Shown: positions 1,458 to 20,680 of the stretch, one piece after another
How positions within the stretch are numbered: the stretch's first letter is position 1
How the letters are laid out: every line of letters begins with the position of its first letter
Source: a virus
Reading direction: 5' to 3' (one strand)
IMG/VR virus record: IMGVR_UViG_3300047319_000113
Span: 1-25,982 of that record
Length of the DNA: 25,982 nucleotides
The notes under the pieces: generated by a model
The model's database searches: none
What the model was told of the DNA's origin: nothing
The model's input: the letters and a program-made list of their open reading frames with translations, nothing else
Position numbers and translations under genes: made by a program

Positions 1458-1556
1458 TCAGCAGCAGTTATAATAACCAGAAAGCCGCACACCGATTGAA
1501 ACGGCAACGACGATCCCGATTATCAGCAACGCGATTTGCACAACACCTAATTTCAA
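1458..1556 (-). CDS. 32-aa single-pass membrane peptide (TTG start)
   Basis: Starting at TTG 1556, which overlaps the TGA stop of the upstream gene in the pattern TTGA, the frame encodes 32 residues: a short N-terminus, one long hydrophobic helix (VQIALLIIGIVVAVSIGV, residues about 6-23), and a RLSGYYNCC end with two cysteines. AAAGGA lies about 8 bases upstream inside the previous gene. It is the last gene before the tandem hairpins. A tiny membrane peptide at the end of a late operon could be a lysis accessory or a virion or host-membrane factor; nothing in the sequence decides this. A GTG at codon 6 is an alternative start. Confidence 0.45.
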   Translation of the reverse strand: MKLGVVQIALLIIGIVVAVSIGVRLSGYYNCC

Positions 1557-13863: not shown

Positions 13864-16002
13864 TCATTCGAAAGAGTATGTGTTGAACGCCGTCACGCCA
13901 CCACCAGCAACTGCAGCCTGTGGAGAACGCTTAATGTTCGTCGGGATAAATGGGCTAGCACCTTTTTCCCAAACGCTGCCCGGTTTATCCTTATCGCCAA
14001 AATTAATATCGACATTCGCAGTACCTACATTACCACCACTGCCAGCACGTAACGCATCATCAATCGTACCACGCGATAAGAATGGAATAGCTCTACCAGC
14101 TCCACTCCAGACACCCGTTCCTGCCGTTGCATCCGCTGCTCGCTGTCTTTCTGCCCATCGACGACCTGCCTCACCATGCGCAGAAAACCACGCGCCTTCA
14201 ACTTTATGCATCCCCCAATATTTAGGATTCGACATATACTTAGCGTAATTCGGATCACCTCGCATACCTTGGTCAGTTGCGTAATCAGTAATGTTTGATC
14301 CGGCATAAACTTTGGTAAGCGCGGCCTCTCCTTCTGCAGCTGTCTTTTGGGAAATATTGCCACTGATAAGATGCTTATTTACAGGACCATATTGTCCTGA
14401 ATGGAGTGCCTGATTTATTGTCATGTGGCGCATTGCTGCGTAGTTAAATAATTGCTCCAGATTGGATTGAATGCCACCTTCATGTTGCATCGCGTCAATG
14501 GCAAATCTTTTTAACTGCGGATTGCCTTCCAACTCTTTCTTGAACCCCGCGCGTTGATCGGCAAGGCTTCCACTCGGTCCACTGTCGCCAAGATCGCCAG
14601 TCGTCTCCGCTGGTCCACCACCACCCTTGCTCTGCGGAAACGACTGCCCAGCACCTGGACCGCTGCGTCCCATTGGATTAGCAACGCCTCCACTACCACC
14701 ACTACCACCAATTGCACCGCCACCACTTTTTTGCTGGTCCCACTTTTGAAACGTATCACGCATTTCGTGCAATAATTTATTTGAATCCTTATCTGTCTCA
14801 GCTGACTCCTGCACGAGTAACGAAGATCCAGGCTCAACTTCAGCTGCACCAGCCTCCATACTAAATTGCTTCCCGATCCAGTCCCATAAACCTCCAGCCT
14901 TGCCGCCTTCCGGTCCACCGGGCAATTGGCTGTTCATACTATCGATGATCGCGCGCTCGGTACGTATGCTGCCTAACGGTAACGTCTTATCCTTTTCGTC
15001 TTTCTGTTCACCTTCTTTCTTCTTGCCAGTCCACTTAGTAAGGAACGCATCGACTTCACCAAACGCTTTTACAACCCAATCAAATTCTTGTTTCGTTGTT
15101 GCTAGCGCGGGCATCACATACGTATTAAAGAAAGTTCTAAAATTATCTGCAAACGAATGCGCCTTTTCATTTAGACCGTCGATACCTTCCTTACCCATCA
15201 TCTTATTGATACCCTCGATCATCGTATACGCCATGTCGGTCCACAGGCTGGTACCGATAGTCTCGAGGTTCGTCATCGTCTTGTGATACTTCGCGGCCTC
15301 ACCTTCCTGAAATTTCCAGGGTTCAATCAACCCCTCCATTCCAACTTTACCAGCCTCGAACGCTGCACGCGATAAACCTGTAACAGTTGGCAACCACGCT
15401 TTGAACCGCTCACCACCATTATTATAAGCTTGTTGAAGAACGTTCAACGCCTCTTGCTGCTTACCGGCATTCATCAACTGACGAACTTGTTCAGCCAGCG
15501 CAGGACTGCTGGCCTGAAGTGATTTATAAAACGAAGACGTTTCTTGTAACGCCAACACTTCCTGTAACTTAGATCCGATACTCGCAATGCCACTAGACGC
15601 TTCGCTCGCATCAACTCCAGCAGCAGATAATTGCGTCCGTAAATTCTGAACGCTCTGAACCGTGAACCCGGTATTAGTAGCAAAGTTACGTAACTGCAAC
15701 TCACCAACCGCAAACGCATCTAGCGCCTTGGCAACTCCAGCAAAACCAACCGCAAGACCACCCGCGCCTAGTAGCGTCTTGGCTATTCCCGCCGCAGCTG
15801 CGTCCATCGCCTTTATCGGACCGCGCGTATAATGCTCAACGACCTTACCGAACCGCTCGAACTCATCCGCAAGATTGCTGCCACTTTTGCTGCCAGCATC
15901 ATTGAGGCTACTAATTTTAAGTTTTAAATTATCGACTTCTTTTCCGAGCTGCTGGAAGAATGCCAGCATCTGATCTGCATCGAAATTATTCTGCTGCGGC
16001 AT
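13864..16002 (-). CDS. Second tape-measure-like protein with lysozyme-like C-terminal domain
   Basis: A 712-residue protein, paralogous to the preceding gene. Residues 1-300 align almost without gaps, with shared blocks LSAAGVDASEA, LALQETSSFYK (150-160), QLMNAGKQQEA, GERFKAWLPTVTG and GLNEKAHSFADNF. A hydrophobic segment lies at about 71-98. Residues 424-480 are a Gly/Ser/Pro linker. The C-terminal part (about 485-625) reads FAIDAMQHEGGIQSNLEQLF, HSGQYGPVNK, ATDQGMRGDPNY and GAWFSAHGEAGRRW, like a muramidase or transglycosylase domain; Glu508 is a candidate acid. Similar domains end tape measures of rhizobial phages, as I recall. It starts in the stop of its paralogue (TAATG). Confidence 0.7.
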   Translation of the reverse strand: MPQQNNFDADQMLAFFQQLGKEVDNLKLKISSLNDAGSKSGSNLADEFERFGKVVEHYTRGPIKAMDAAAAGIAKTLLGAGGLAVGFAGVAKALDAFAVGELQLRNFATNTGFTVQSVQNLRTQLSAAGVDASEASSGIASIGSKLQEVLALQETSSFYKSLQASSPALAEQVRQLMNAGKQQEALNVLQQAYNNGGERFKAWLPTVTGLSRAAFEAGKVGMEGLIEPWKFQEGEAAKYHKTMTNLETIGTSLWTDMAYTMIEGINKMMGKEGIDGLNEKAHSFADNFRTFFNTYVMPALATTKQEFDWVVKAFGEVDAFLTKWTGKKKEGEQKDEKDKTLPLGSIRTERAIIDSMNSQLPGGPEGGKAGGLWDWIGKQFSMEAGAAEVEPGSSLLVQESAETDKDSNKLLHEMRDTFQKWDQQKSGGGAIGGSGGSGGVANPMGRSGPGAGQSFPQSKGGGGPAETTGDLGDSGPSGSLADQRAGFKKELEGNPQLKRFAIDAMQHEGGIQSNLEQLFNYAAMRHMTINQALHSGQYGPVNKHLISGNISQKTAAEGEAALTKVYAGSNITDYATDQGMRGDPNYAKYMSNPKYWGMHKVEGAWFSAHGEAGRRWAERQRAADATAGTGVWSGAGRAIPFLSRGTIDDALRAGSGGNVGTANVDINFGDKDKPGSVWEKGASPFIPTNIKRSPQAAVAGGGVTAFNTYSFE

Positions 16003-17960
16003 TATTCGTACGCAAGCTGGTTGGACTTGTTAAGTTTCAACGTGTTAAATACTCCACCCATTTCCGCGTTGGCCTTCACACCTTCTGGCACGTTATTTAA
16101 ATTAACATTAAGCTGCGCATTCCACGGACTACCTGAATTCTTCGCTCCCAATGCGTTATCAATTTTTGTTCTATCCTGCTGCTGCGCTTGCACCGCATCG
16201 ACCGCAGTCTTACCTGCAAACCGCGTATCCATATCCGTAAGCTTACGTCGCCGTGCGCCGTACTGGTCTGCGAATATTGCCGTGCCATCTTTCTCGTTAT
16301 ACGATCCCGGCACGATCGTCATAACGTGACCGCCAGTTTGACCAGGAGCTAATACCTGACCTTGCGTACCGCCATAACGTCCATGGAAATAAGTACTGAC
16401 CATACTTCCGAACGGATGATTAGGCGCGTTGATATCGTTAGGATCTAATTTCTCACCCCACTTATGCCACGACGTTGCGATCGCTGCACCCGTGGGAGGC
16501 TTATACCCGGCAGATTTTACGTACCCAGAAGCAACCATACCGCAAGCCGGTCCGGACATTCGATAACCGCGCTGGCTAAATAATTTCTGTAACCCCGCAA
16601 CGTCACCCGCACGACCTAATATCTCTGCCTGACGCATCGTATCAGGATCGATCTTCTTGCCGCCTTCGTCGTTCAAACCAGCGGGACCACCGGGACTAGC
16701 TGTAGAGCTCCCACCGCCTCCACCGCCTCCACCGCCTCCACCGCCTCCACCGATCGCACCAACTCCACCATTAACTTGATCGTCCCACTTTTGAATAATA
16801 TCGCGCATATCCTGCAACGATTTATTTGAATCCTTTTGTACAACTATAATTGAATTCTGATCAACGCCTGACTTAGCTGAAGCATCACCAACCCCAAGTT
16901 GCTTCTTCATCCAATCCCACGAACTAAAATTTTTATCCTTCTCATCTTCATTTTGACGGCGAATAAATTCTTCAGGTCGTAACCGAAAACCCTGACCAGG
17001 ATCACGTGTCTGTGCCTGTTTGTTAAACCAATCAATAATATCCTTGGCTTCCTGAAACGTCTCCTTTAAAGTTGGGATGACACTGTTGTCAAACCACGTT
17101 TTAAAATTATCAGCAAACTTGTGCGCCTTCTCGTTCAACCCCTCGAGACCTTCACTCCCTGTTAATTTAACGATACCTTCTAAAACAGTATTCGTTACCG
17201 AATTCCACACACCATCAAAAATCGTACCTAGATTAACCATCGTCTTATGATACTTCGCAGCATCGCCATCAAGCTCCTTCCAAGGCATTATCAAACCTTC
17301 CATACCTTGTGCTTGCGCCTCCCACGCAGCTCTCGATATCCCTGTGACCGTTGGCAACCACGCTTTAAATCTTTCGCCACCTTTATTAAATTTCTCCTGA
17401 AGATAATTCATCGCCTCCTGCTGCTTACCAGCATTCATTAACTGGCGAACGTTTTCCGCCATTGCCGGTTCACTAGCTTGCAGCGCCTTATAAAATGAAG
17501 ACGTTTCTTGCAAGGCAAGAACGTCCTGTAACTTAGCTCCGATACTCCCGATCCCCTGCGCCGCTTCGTTTGCATCGATACCAGCAGCAGAAAGCTGCAC
17601 TCGCATTTTCTTCAAACCATCTGTAGAAAAGCCGGTATTAATCGCAAAGTTTCTAGTATGTAATGCGCTAACCGCAAAGTGATCGAGCGCCTTGCCAACA
17701 CCACCGATGACCAACGCAAGCTTAGCGACACCTCCAGCCGAACCAATGAGCCCGGATATGCCTGACTCCATTCCACGCAATGCGCCTTGCGTGTGTCGCT
17801 GAATAGTCTGACCAAACTTTTCAGTATGATCAGTCATTTTCTTCATCGCATTGCCAGCTTCGTTAAGGCTGACAATCTTGGTCTTAAAGTTATCTATCTC
17901 CTTTCCCATCTGGCCGAAGAAAGCCAACATGGCATCGGAATCAAAATCCATGTCAGGCAT
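16002..17960 (-). CDS. First tape-measure-like protein with Cys-peptidase-like C-terminal domain
   Basis: A 652-residue protein directly after the tail assembly chaperone, the canonical tape-measure position. Residues 1-300 are helical with a hydrophobic stretch at about 66-96 and the blocks shared with its neighbour. Residues 404-417 are an uninterrupted poly-Gly run. The C-terminal part (about 460-575) reads YRMSGPACGMVASGYVKSAG, then PPTGAAIATSWHKWGEKL, GGHVMTIV and ADQYG. Cys473, His545 and Asp565 could form the active site of a papain-like/NlpC-P60-type peptidoglycan hydrolase (TIGR02594-like pattern). It is short for a tape measure, about 100 nm at 0.15 nm per residue if fully helical. 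Confidence 0.75.
   Translation of the reverse strand: MPDMDFDSDAMLAFFGQMGKEIDNFKTKIVSLNEAGNAMKKMTDHTEKFGQTIQRHTQGALRGMESGISGLIGSAGGVAKLALVIGGVGKALDHFAVSALHTRNFAINTGFSTDGLKKMRVQLSAAGIDANEAAQGIGSIGAKLQDVLALQETSSFYKALQASEPAMAENVRQLMNAGKQQEAMNYLQEKFNKGGERFKAWLPTVTGISRAAWEAQAQGMEGLIMPWKELDGDAAKYHKTMVNLGTIFDGVWNSVTNTVLEGIVKLTGSEGLEGLNEKAHKFADNFKTWFDNSVIPTLKETFQEAKDIIDWFNKQAQTRDPGQGFRLRPEEFIRRQNEDEKDKNFSSWDWMKKQLGVGDASAKSGVDQNSIIVVQKDSNKSLQDMRDIIQKWDDQVNGGVGAIGGGGGGGGGGGGGGSSTASPGGPAGLNDEGGKKIDPDTMRQAEILGRAGDVAGLQKLFSQRGYRMSGPACGMVASGYVKSAGYKPPTGAAIATSWHKWGEKLDPNDINAPNHPFGSMVSTYFHGRYGGTQGQVLAPGQTGGHVMTIVPGSYNEKDGTAIFADQYGARRRKLTDMDTRFAGKTAVDAVQAQQQDRTKIDNALGAKNSGSPWNAQLNVNLNNVPEGVKANAEMGGVFNTLKLNKSNQLAYE
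16714..16749 (-). repeat. Nine-base tandem repeat encoding poly-Gly
   Basis: Four perfect copies of CCGCCTCCA on the + strand, each encoding three Gly residues on the coding strand; flanking Gly codons extend the run to 14. Slippage by whole units would keep the frame and only change linker length between the tail body and the peptidase-like domain. Confidence 0.8.
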
Positions 17961-18473
17961 CGTCGTCCACCGGCCTTAATATTTCTTCCAACTTAGTCGT
18001 CCACTTGATATGCTTAGCTACTTCCGAAAACGGCATATCAAGAAACTCACGCGGATTACGTCCGTAGTATTTCGCCAACCGATAACAGTCCAGGATAAAA
18101 TTGCCCTCTACATCTCTGGAATAAAAAAACGATGCGCCAGTGCCAAGGCTGCATACCCCCAATCTTTTGGATGCATGGCCTTGATTGTAGAAGGTGGCAC
18201 CCCAGCAAGCCGAGACATCATGGCAAACATTGCCCTTGTCTCGAAAGTCATCTTCGGCATTTCGCCAGTCATGAAATCGATCATGACAGGCGTACCACAG
18301 ATCTCGATGTCGCCAGCGGTAGGTTCACGAAAACGTAATTCCTGAACCTCTTCACCGTGCGCAATAACTTTCTTCCGCAGCGGTATTACAAGATCGGTGG
18401 AAGTAATTTCTGCCCCATTGACTTTCTTTGGCTCGTCCGTCTTGGGTGCTTGTGGTTCTGTTTCGTCTACCAT
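17953..18473 (-). CDS. Tail assembly chaperone, -1 frameshift fusion product
   Basis: The frame that continues past the chaperone gene in the -1 phase has no good start of its own. If ribosomes slip at TTTTTTT (18129-18123), residues 1-117 of the chaperone are joined to 56 more, YSRDVEGNFILDCYRLAKYY and so on to PVDDDA, giving 173 residues. This is the arrangement of G/GT in lambda, E/E+E' in P2 and gp41/gp42 in Mu, where the minor extended form binds the tape measure. The extension contains MPFSEVAKHIKW, like the C-terminal helix of GpE-type extensions. Its stop overlaps the tape-measure start region. The shift is inferred, not measured. Confidence 0.75.
18108..18473 (-). CDS. Tail assembly chaperone (Mu gp41-like), unshifted form
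   Basis: A 121-residue protein starting immediately after the tube stop (TAAATG). The pattern is that of Mu gp41-like chaperones: a charged N-terminus, DLVIPLRKKVIAHGEEVQEL, then RFREPTAGDIEICG, then a helical end, MFAMMSRLAGVPPSTIKAM followed by HPKDWGYAALALAHRFF. REPTxGD is the family signature. It keeps the tape measure soluble and recruits tube protein during assembly. The slippery heptamer lies five codons before its stop. Confidence 0.85.
   Translation of the reverse strand: MVDETEPQAPKTDEPKKVNGAEITSTDLVIPLRKKVIAHGEEVQELRFREPTAGDIEICGTPVMIDFMTGEMPKMTFETRAMFAMMSRLAGVPPSTIKAMHPKDWGYAALALAHRFFIPEM
18123..18129 (-). promoter_or_regulatory. Slippery heptamer T TTT TTT for -1 frameshift
   Basis: On the coding strand the phase is CGT TTT TTT ATT, so both tRNAs can re-pair after a one-base slip, the X XXY YYZ form. 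The -1 frame then reads TAT TCC AGA and stays open to 17953. Only weak pairing (CCAG with CTGG) is visible downstream, so any stimulatory structure is modest. Confidence 0.8.
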
Positions 18474-18836
18474 TTATTGGATCTCATCGCAGCTGATGCC
18501 TTCCCACTTGACCCGAACGAGGCCATCGCGGGCATTGATCGCAAGTGCTGAAACGCACCAGCCTTCTCTCAGCACATACGTCGCATTGTTGGCGAGCTCT
18601 GCCGTGATCGTGACGTTGACTTGCGCCTCGAAGGCTTCAATCGACAAACCTGGAACCGTTGACACGTCTCCTTCAATCGAAGGAACGCGCGGCAGCTCCG
18701 AGTAGCCATGGATATAATCCTGGCCAGCGAGACCCGCGCGCTCGATCACTGACGGAGTAATCGTAAAGTTACCACGCAGTGGATACTGATTGCCATCCAC
18801 TTTGAGATAGGCAATTCCTGCTATTCGTTGAGCCAT
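18474..18836 (-). CDS. Tail tube protein (Mu gpM-like)
   Basis: A 120-residue protein. ATG 18836 is chosen because AAGGAAGATC lies just upstream; the frame is open further but only through the small-gene region. It begins MAQRIAGIAYLKVDGNQYPL, the usual start of Mu-type tube proteins, then RGNFTITPSVIERAGLAGQD, a VPSIEGDVSTVPGLSIEAFE strand pair, and a beta-rich end. It should stack as hexameric rings to make the tail tube. It follows the sheath gene with one tiny gene between. Confidence 0.88.
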   Translation of the reverse strand: MAQRIAGIAYLKVDGNQYPLRGNFTITPSVIERAGLAGQDYIHGYSELPRVPSIEGDVSTVPGLSIEAFEAQVNVTITAELANNATYVLREGWCVSALAINARDGLVRVKWEGISCDEIQ

Positions 18837-18849
18837 GTGATCTTCCTTT

Positions 18850-18933
18850 CTATGGCCTAGGAAATAGAAACCCAATCAGAAAGCCAACGACTACCAGCAG
18901 GATAAGTACAACAACCTGCTGGTAATCGGTCAC
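18850..18933 (-). CDS. 27-aa membrane peptide between sheath and tube
   Basis: GTG 18933, two bases after the sheath stop, opens a 27-residue frame that ends at TAG 18850-18852, 13 bases before the tube ATG: MTDYQQ, then VVVLILLVVVGFLIGFLF, then PRP. One hydrophobic helix fills nearly all of it. There is no strong ribosome-binding site, so translation is probably coupled to the sheath gene. The near-perfect fit into the gap (no overlap, little spare sequence) supports a real gene. Its function is unknown. Confidence 0.5.
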   Translation of the reverse strand: MTDYQQVVVLILLVVVGFLIGFLFPRP

Positions 18934-18935
18934 TG

Positions 18936-20450
18936 TTAAGTCGCAACAACGGTATCCACACCGCGATCGTATTGCAGTCTGAACTGCGCAAGGACCGCAA
19001 ACACCCTAAGCTGGTTCACAAGATCTGGTGGATATAAACAATTGACACGGTTGGGATCGTTAGGATCACGCTCAACGATCAAATTAGTTTTGAACGCTGC
19101 ACCATTCTCAACCAGTCCATTGAATTCATCAATGCGATACTGCGCTACCAATTCCGCCTTGATAATCTTCGGAGTGACGATCGCCTGACCAACACCAAAA
19201 CGTGTACCATCATCTGCGAGTTTATGTCTTGGGAATTTACTGGTGATTGCCTGTCGCTGATTGCGCAGCAACTTAGCAAGCGTCGCCAGCGTTGTCACGA
19301 GCTCGTACGCGTCGTCACTATTGCCGTACAAGTTCTTCTGGTACGTAGTATTCTCCCGCATAATCATCGGCACGTCTACTGCCGTACGCTGCGTTGCTAG
19401 CCCAGCGTAAGCAAAAGCGTTGAGCTCCGACATAATGAATCGCGTATGGAACGGCGCGGGTAAACAACTCGCCAACGACAAAGTCTGCAACGGTCGTGCT
19501 GGATCATTGATCAATGCACGCGCGGCCTTTGCTGTATACGCTGCCGCCCATTCATAACTTGGCGTAGGCGCACTCGGCTCAATCGCTAGTATAGACATCT
19601 GTGCACTGTTGCGCGTCTCTCCGAACAAAAGCAGGTTCGTATAAGTCTCGCGCTTTGCGTTGAACAAATGCCCATAATGTTGCCGCATCCATCCCCAGCG
19701 ACCGGTATCGGAAAATCCAAATTCAGTTTCCCATGCCAGCATAGAAGTCGAGTCCGTATACGGCATACACACGTAATCAATTTCCGTTTCACCGAGTGCA
19801 CTAATGGCATTAGTGAATACTGGCACACCAGTACCGCCTGTGAACGGTGCATACGTCAACGTCAATCCAACTGGTAATTGTTCACCACCGATCGTACCAT
19901 AGTAGCTATCAGACACCTGGATTTCATCACCCTGTGTGCCTTTGAACTTAGACGTAAGTGTAACGACACCTGCAGCAGCCGTAGCAGTTACTGGCAAATC
20001 CTTATTGGCATTGATCGCCGTATCAATAGAGGTAGCGACAATGGCAACCGTATCTGTTGCGCCTACGTAGACCGGTACATTCTGTCCAGCGATGTAAAGA
20101 CTAATCGTCCCGGCTTGTGTTGGTGCCGTCGCAACCGTGATGGTACCTGTTGCCGCTGCACCAGTCGGATCGGCAACCGGCAAACCCCACACTTCATTTG
20201 CCCAATTGTTGGCGAAGAACACTCTAAACATATTCGCCAGCATCGAACCTTGACCGAAGAAATGATCTGCATCAGCTTGTGACGGGACCGCGATAGGTAC
20301 ATCAGGTGGTACGGTGCCAGTCGATAGCATCGAACCAACTAGTAATGACCGTCCAGGTGTCTGTCCTAAGCCAGCCATCGAAGGATCTAATTCGACCCAG
20401 TAAAGTGGCATTCGCCAATTAGCCGGGATATTATTAAACGAGATAGGCAT
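18936..20450 (-). CDS. Contractile tail sheath protein (Mu gpL-like)
   Basis: A 504-residue protein (505 if ATG 20453 is used; AGGAGAGG favours the second ATG). It follows the Mu sheath family: MPISFNNIPANWRMPLYWVE, then GRSLLVGSML, SQADADHFFGQGSMLANMFR, and VWGLPVADPTGAAATGTI. A surface beta domain covers about 100-210. DYVCMPYTDSTSML leads into the subtilisin-like core, and the C-terminal domain runs from VDVPMIMRENTTYQKNLYG to the end, with FNGLVENGAAFKTNLIVERD. It forms the contractile outer tail. Confidence 0.93.
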   Translation of the reverse strand: MPISFNNIPANWRMPLYWVELDPSMAGLGQTPGRSLLVGSMLSTGTVPPDVPIAVPSQADADHFFGQGSMLANMFRVFFANNWANEVWGLPVADPTGAAATGTITVATAPTQAGTISLYIAGQNVPVYVGATDTVAIVATSIDTAINANKDLPVTATAAAGVVTLTSKFKGTQGDEIQVSDSYYGTIGGEQLPVGLTLTYAPFTGGTGVPVFTNAISALGETEIDYVCMPYTDSTSMLAWETEFGFSDTGRWGWMRQHYGHLFNAKRETYTNLLLFGETRNSAQMSILAIEPSAPTPSYEWAAAYTAKAARALINDPARPLQTLSLASCLPAPFHTRFIMSELNAFAYAGLATQRTAVDVPMIMRENTTYQKNLYGNSDDAYELVTTLATLAKLLRNQRQAITSKFPRHKLADDGTRFGVGQAIVTPKIIKAELVAQYRIDEFNGLVENGAAFKTNLIVERDPNDPNRVNCLYPPDLVNQLRVFAVLAQFRLQYDRGVDTVVAT

Positions 20451-20476
20451 CATGCCTCTCCTATGGGTTGACGAAT

Positions 20477-20680
20477 TTATTCAGCCTTACGCACGAACTT
20501 TGCCTTTTCGTGTTTTTCTTCTTTCTGCTCTGACTCTACTTTCGTTATATCGCCATCCGCGATACGACGATGAGTAAACGTATCGTCTGGCCAATCTACT
20601 GGACCTTCCGCACGAAACTTGCCAGCCTTCGGATGCGCGAGCACTCGCCGCACGTCTTCATTCTTTGGATTTACTTGCAT
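20477..20680 (-). CDS. DUF2635-like small tail protein
   Basis: A 67-residue protein from ATG 20680, preceded by AAAAGGAGAAAG. It reads MQVNPKNEDVRRVLAHPKAG, then DWPDDTFTHRRIADGDITKV, then a charged tail. The DxFWxRRLxDGDV pattern is typical of DUF2635, small proteins placed just before the sheath in Mu-like phages (Mu gp38). No biochemical role is known. It overlaps the upstream gene by 23 bases. The Lys/Glu-rich C-terminus is probably disordered. Confidence 0.75.
   Translation of the reverse strand: MQVNPKNEDVRRVLAHPKAGKFRAEGPVDWPDDTFTHRRIADGDITKVESEQKEEKHEKAKFVRKAE

Follow-up and report, generated by a model that had tools for sequence, protein, structure and literature searches.

On balance, and with moderate confidence, we favour the reading that the junction between the tail sheath and tail tube genes of this phage holds a genuine accessory late gene, here named p27, whose product would be an inner-membrane microprotein coupled to sheath translation and whose frame is overlaid on an RNA hairpin. 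The open frame, a hydrophobic pattern kept among its alleles, a narrow and patchy distribution and the embedded hairpin were all observed directly. The window, meaning the whole stretch of DNA analysed (25,982 nucleotides, positions 1 to 25,982 of IMG/VR record IMGVR_UViG_3300047319_000113), is one virus record.

Within the window, p27 is a 27-codon ORF on the minus strand (18850..18933) that starts with GTG, stops with TAG and encodes VTDYQQVVVLILLVVVGFLIGFLFPRP, with a single predicted transmembrane helix and the C-terminus PRP; read on the plus strand, the same segment has a stop inside. It is flanked by the tail sheath gene (18936-20453, minus strand; PHROG 165, E 2.5e-169) and the tail tube gene (18474-18836, minus strand; PHROG 185; Pfam PF10618, E 4.3e-31), and a tail assembly chaperone gene completes the context (18108..18473, minus strand; PF10109, E 7.9e-10). 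Two nucleotides (CA) separate the sheath stop TAA from the GTG, and 13 nt separate the TAG from the tube ATG, just as an earlier note, which named no strand, had described for a GTG frame filling this gap. The motif AAAGGA (18844..18849, minus strand), likely the Shine-Dalgarno sequence of the tube gene, stands directly 3' of the p27 TAG. Part of IMG/VR contig 3300046680_000139 closely matches the window, with the sheath at 100% and the same set of ORFs at an offset of 21 nt. A single tape measure gene is usual in such phages; the window carries two tandem tape-measure-like genes (13864-16002 and 16002-17960, minus strand), 48% identical over 477 aligned positions and differing at their C-termini, the first with a weak tape measure PHROG match (2e-7).

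The hydrophobicity of p27 is exceptional for the window. Among the 330 six-frame ORFs that were 18-60 aa long, only 2 reached a 15-residue Kyte-Doolittle mean of at least 2.8, and p27 had the highest value (3.43), which points to at least one transmembrane helix as judged by the hydropathy scale only, not a dedicated predictor. When the gap was shuffled 5000 times with dinucleotides preserved, an ORF 20 aa or longer arose in 18% of the shuffles, and one that also had a hydropathy of at least 3.0 in 0.02%. A chance frame with chance hydrophobicity would agree with a family that is single, narrow and fast-evolving, and we regard it as very improbable given this last frequency, the retention of the ORF in all eight alleles, some of them strongly diverged, and a codon-position pattern (below) that by itself largely refutes it. 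The frame and its hydrophobicity are not due to chance.

To place p27 among its relatives, loci were collected as sheath or tube matches from IMG/VR and bacterial genomes. The resulting set numbered 250 sequences, the window among them, with several contigs represented twice. A usable sheath end was present in 249 and a tube as well in 232, which yielded 144 distinct gaps; the 17 of 249 loci that were dropped had a sheath and no tube found by tblastn, nine of them coming from the bacterial scan. A p27-like hydrophobic ORF was present in 8 of the 144 distinct gaps, all of one peptide family, and loci L238 and L149 had hydrophobic frames only within long inserts. The eight alleles encode five peptide types, namely MTDYQQVVVLILLVVVGFLIGFLFPRP (three DNA alleles), MTNHQQVTIFVLLVIVGFLAAFLIPKP, MTDRQQVTIFILLVIVGFLAAFLIPKP, MDPQGVSIIILLVLFGLAALACSRP and [N/D]HQ[E/A]VSMIILVLLLGFAAGLFLPRP (two alleles), with lengths from 19 to 32 aa (27 aa in the window). 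The L006 and L014/L109 types start with an ATG that overlaps the sheath stop (TAATG), and others have a 2-nt spacing; the L013/L021 type, [N/D]HQ[E/A]VSMIILVLLLGFAAGLFLPRP, lacks a start codon at the aligned position and would need a TTG inside the sheath gene or an internal ATG. At the 3' end, all eight alleles have the TAG abutting AAAGGA and 13 nt to the tube ATG, and CCATAGAAAGGA is invariant across them.

Scans of IMG/VR with three DNA patterns (degenerate; narrower; 3' end joined to the tube start) returned 13, 2 and 22 stretches, all in contigs already sampled, and found the peptide only in the sheath-tube gap; more diverged peptides escape such patterns, and the L109 type missed the first and was recovered only by the third. 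One of the 22 stretches, L280, lies in the same contig as L103, which has a short gap keeping only the 3' end. No p27-type ORF was found among the loci with a locatable tube in one sheath scan of bacterial genomes (37 loci). In that scan, the bacterial sheaths closest to that of the window came from Bradyrhizobium (58-60%). The peptide had no match in Pfam, PHROG or NCBIfam, where a 27-mer gives little power, and a p27-type gene is not named in the literature located by our search, although one may still have been published.

Further comparison of the alleles revealed constraint at the protein level. The window and L013 differ at 39 of 72 aligned nucleotides, and their in-frame BLOSUM62 score was 61; substitutions placed at random gave 2.9 ± 11.7 (p ~2e-4). 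These differences fell on codon positions 1, 2 and 3 at 16, 3 and 20 of 24 sites, respectively (hypergeometric p 4e-7), and it is the second codon position that sets hydrophobicity. L006 versus L013 showed the same pattern (14, 3 and 14 of 23; p 1e-4); against the L109 type, three comparisons pointed the same way, more weakly (p 0.003-0.03). For the window versus L006 the counts were 8, 4 and 8 (p 0.11), and the in-frame similarity test of the window versus L007 was not significant (p 0.11). None of 20000 whole shuffles reached the peptide score of the window versus L013, whereas 137 of 20000 core-only shuffles with the ends fixed did, so part of this likeness is what any two membrane helices share.

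The dN/dS of p27 was mostly 0.2-0.9, and that of the sheath below 0.1. For the window versus L006 and L007, p27 gave 0.48 and 0.92, respectively, with sheath values of 0.04-0.05, ten or more times lower, and one shifted frame gave ratios below those of the true frame (0.25 and 0.24). Given the codon-position tests, the weak close pairs and these ratios, what is kept is residue class and not sequence, and the close alleles alone would be insufficient to prove a gene. Frame and residue class were kept while silent sites diverged, as expected of a coding gene, a pattern that is weak among the closest alleles. The earlier note had held that a broken frame or a lost hydrophobic pattern in related phages would speak against a real, overlooked membrane-peptide gene; in all eight carrying alleles the frame is unbroken and the pattern of hydrophobic residues persists, which supports its proposal.

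The distribution of the gene is patchy. In the closest clade (tube identity at least 96%) the ORF is present in 8 of 15 distinct gaps and absent from 7, and it is absent from the other 129 of the 144 sampled gaps, with sheath and tube intact. In a tree of 39 sequences, printed with no support values, each of the three subclades with the ORF has a sister group of phages lacking it. ORF-less sisters include gaps of 25-28 nt, and in L103 and L092 a short gap that resembles a deletion scar retains nothing but the 3' end (GGCCATAG). These absences do not support the suggestion of the earlier note that the peptide might tie tail assembly to the membrane. Such a tether has the operon position in its favour and nothing more among our data; with sheath and tube intact where the ORF is missing, and with no gene annotated at this place in five Mu-like records, it is hardly credible, and an essential tether is unlikely because it is contradicted by the patchy distribution.

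Outside the p27 carriers, sheath and tube are separated by a short spacer, by a hairpin or by an insert. Relatives of the window commonly have gaps of as much as 158 nt, and 17 of the 144 distinct gaps exceed 250 nt. ORFs of 190-260 aa occur in the gaps of L198, L224, L066, L080, L081, L127, L138, L141, L150 and L238; when these 10 insert ORFs were scanned against Pfam, one passed the GIY-YIG cut-off, one fell just below it and eight were unmatched. Inserts of 2-3.8 kb between sheath and tube were seen in L158 (Bradyrhizobium sp. BRP22), L146, L149 and L152, that of L158 including a 332-aa ORF that, by eye, resembles a glycosyltransferase. The sheath-tube junction thus seems to be an insertion spot. 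Given the patchy presence, the scars and the spacers, hairpins and inserts elsewhere, the slot is variable and the peptide gene optional and apparently confined to one soil-phage clade.

The earlier note had overlooked an RNA hairpin inside the frame. In the window it spans 18888..18928 (minus strand), with arms at 18928-18915 and 18901-18888 that form 14 pairs including G-U, a loop of 13 nt and no clear U-tract; its core of 10 Watson-Crick pairs is among the two longest such inverted repeats (loop at most 20) in the window. Every allele has a hairpin of 12-14 bp within the frame. The fold z of the gap in four alleles was -3.8, -3.9, -1.3 and -4.6, three of the four being far more stable than shuffles. 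All seven tested alleles were more stable than the mean of synonymous recodings, of which 2-55 of 2000 were as stable under permutation and 0-93 of 2000 under phage codon usage; the excess was strong in the window, L007 and L021 and weak in L109, and in L013 the two controls disagreed in strength (6 versus 93 of 2000). Since the in-frame hairpin of every tested allele beats synonymous recodings, the segment may serve as RNA also. The bases after the stem, TTGGCTTTCT, which the fold script flagged on a loose T count, contain no long T run, unlike the GC-rich stem and U-tract of a terminator. A terminator scan reported none in the gap, with a loop limit of 8 that excludes the 13-nt loop, and Rfam gave no known RNA family at E up to 1.

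It is possible, though we think it fairly unlikely, that the functional element is this hairpin, processing, attenuating or stabilising the message, and that the frame is incidental or weakly selected. The z values and the excess over recodings argue for this, as does covariation among five window-like alleles, where two adjacent pairs change on both sides and 98.6% of cells are paired; the control is modest for five related sequences, however, since 23 of 500 shuffles match the score. The gaps of L013 and L021 also differ at only 2 of 89 nt, against 53 of 400 in the sheath and 45 of 360 in the tube (p 5e-4), but the low divergence reaches about 80 nt into the sheath (2 of 40 in each of the last two blocks), so that a small recombination tract would explain it as well as RNA selection would. 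In addition, among 60 gaps measuring 45-160 nt, 23 had a z of -2 or lower; the ORF is missing from most of these and some have T-tracts, and a sheath-tube hairpin is therefore a wider habit of these phages. What speaks against an incidental frame is that the conserved sites are second codon positions and that the hairpin, placed elsewhere in the frame in the L013 and L109 types, shifts by about 8 codons between the window and L013 types while the peptide alignment is unchanged. Since the hairpin is rebuilt at different sites by lineage and the peptide stays aligned, a single element may both set tail-protein expression and, late in infection, act on the host membrane. That selection acts on two superimposed functions of the 84-nt segment, one as a membrane microprotein and one as a sheath-tube RNA hairpin, is a tentative idea to which we give about the same low weight as to the hairpin alone.

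If p27 is an accessory late gene, ribosomes ending the sheath gene would most likely start it by stop-start coupling, as the TAATG overlap in two types and the 2-nt spacing in others suggest. The product would insert in the membrane as one helix. A spacing of G17xxxG/A21, which we take to be a small-xxx-small motif, is found in 7 of the 8 alleles, and p27 may therefore self-associate. Sharing a transcript with the most abundant tail proteins, it would build up late and would then alter the host membrane at that stage of infection, through lysis timing or the exclusion of other phages. Given its position and helix, such late membrane modulation is the most plausible specific function, and one in which our confidence is low. 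The hairpin probably serves the transcript in its own right, for example by processing or attenuating it at the sheath-tube junction. That p27 is translated, coupled to the sheath gene, inserted in the membrane and oligomeric, and what it does there, are all steps that we infer from the sequence.

Two other uses of the frame were considered. As a coupling cistron, the ORF would be translated to open the tube ribosome-binding site and balance sheath and tube, the peptide being irrelevant, and its stop indeed abuts AAAGGA in all eight alleles. By partition-function folding, however, the tube start was predicted to be no less open when the ORF was present (mean 0.53, n=8) than when it was absent (0.47, n=117). 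Keeping the end of the ORF open in the fold did not raise this openness, and sisters with 25-28 nt gaps manage without an ORF; unmasking of the tube site by an ORF ribosome was rejected as the main explanation, and the coupling cistron seems quite improbable. A frameshift extension of the sheath was rejected because the frame of the ORF relative to the sheath differs between the window (frame 2) and L013 (frame 1).

p27 is not the sole candidate membrane protein of the phage. A 32-aa single-helix ORF (1458-1556, minus strand) at the end of the late operon has a TTG start overlapping the upstream stop, is closely followed, as judged by eye, by a hairpin and its T-tract, and is 91% identical in contig G002. 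A very hydrophobic 74-aa two-helix protein, holin-like by shape only, is encoded a short way downstream of the gene for the terminase large subunit (L273:9054-9278 and L276:7973-8197, minus strand), the L273 instance being on a near-identical longer contig.

These results indicate that the junctions between tail genes, commonly taken to be empty, can hold membrane genes of fewer than 30 codons, which escape annotation and can overlie RNA structure. Should the peptide act on the membrane, the most strongly expressed genes of the phage would include a factor for lysis or exclusion. The practical value is modest for now, because the gene is optional and found in one clade only.

The window shares with Mu L-M, SfI and AH07 the order DUF2635-type small gene, sheath, tube, chaperone and tape measure. 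The sheath-tube spacing is 9 nt in Mu, a 1-nt overlap in SfI and AH07, 36 nt in PBb001 and 66 nt in DVM-2008, so that these five annotated Mu-like records range from an overlap to 66 nt and, unlike the window, have no annotated gene there. The statement of the earlier note that sheath and tube genes are nearly always direct neighbours fits these records; among the relatives of the window, longer gaps are common. Phage single-helix small membrane proteins include one-helix holins and pinholins. Like these, p27 is very short, with one hydrophobic helix, a place in a phage late operon and possible small-xxx-small self-association; unlike them, it is optional and lies outside a lysis cassette, between sheath and tube and not beside an endolysin or spanin gene, and it had no holin-family match in Pfam, PHROGs or NCBIfam, searches of little power for a 27-mer. 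One-helix holins are themselves classed as small membrane proteins in PMC10903887. With regard to antisense control, a weak consensus promoter scan of 18300-20600 gave no plus-strand site reading into the ORF. Among bacterial counterparts, Ibs and Hok are type I toxins. YohP is a bacterial small membrane protein of 27 aa, according to PMC7549839. Compared with YohP, Ibs and Hok, p27 sits in a phage late operon and shares with them its length, hydrophobic core and structured mRNA.
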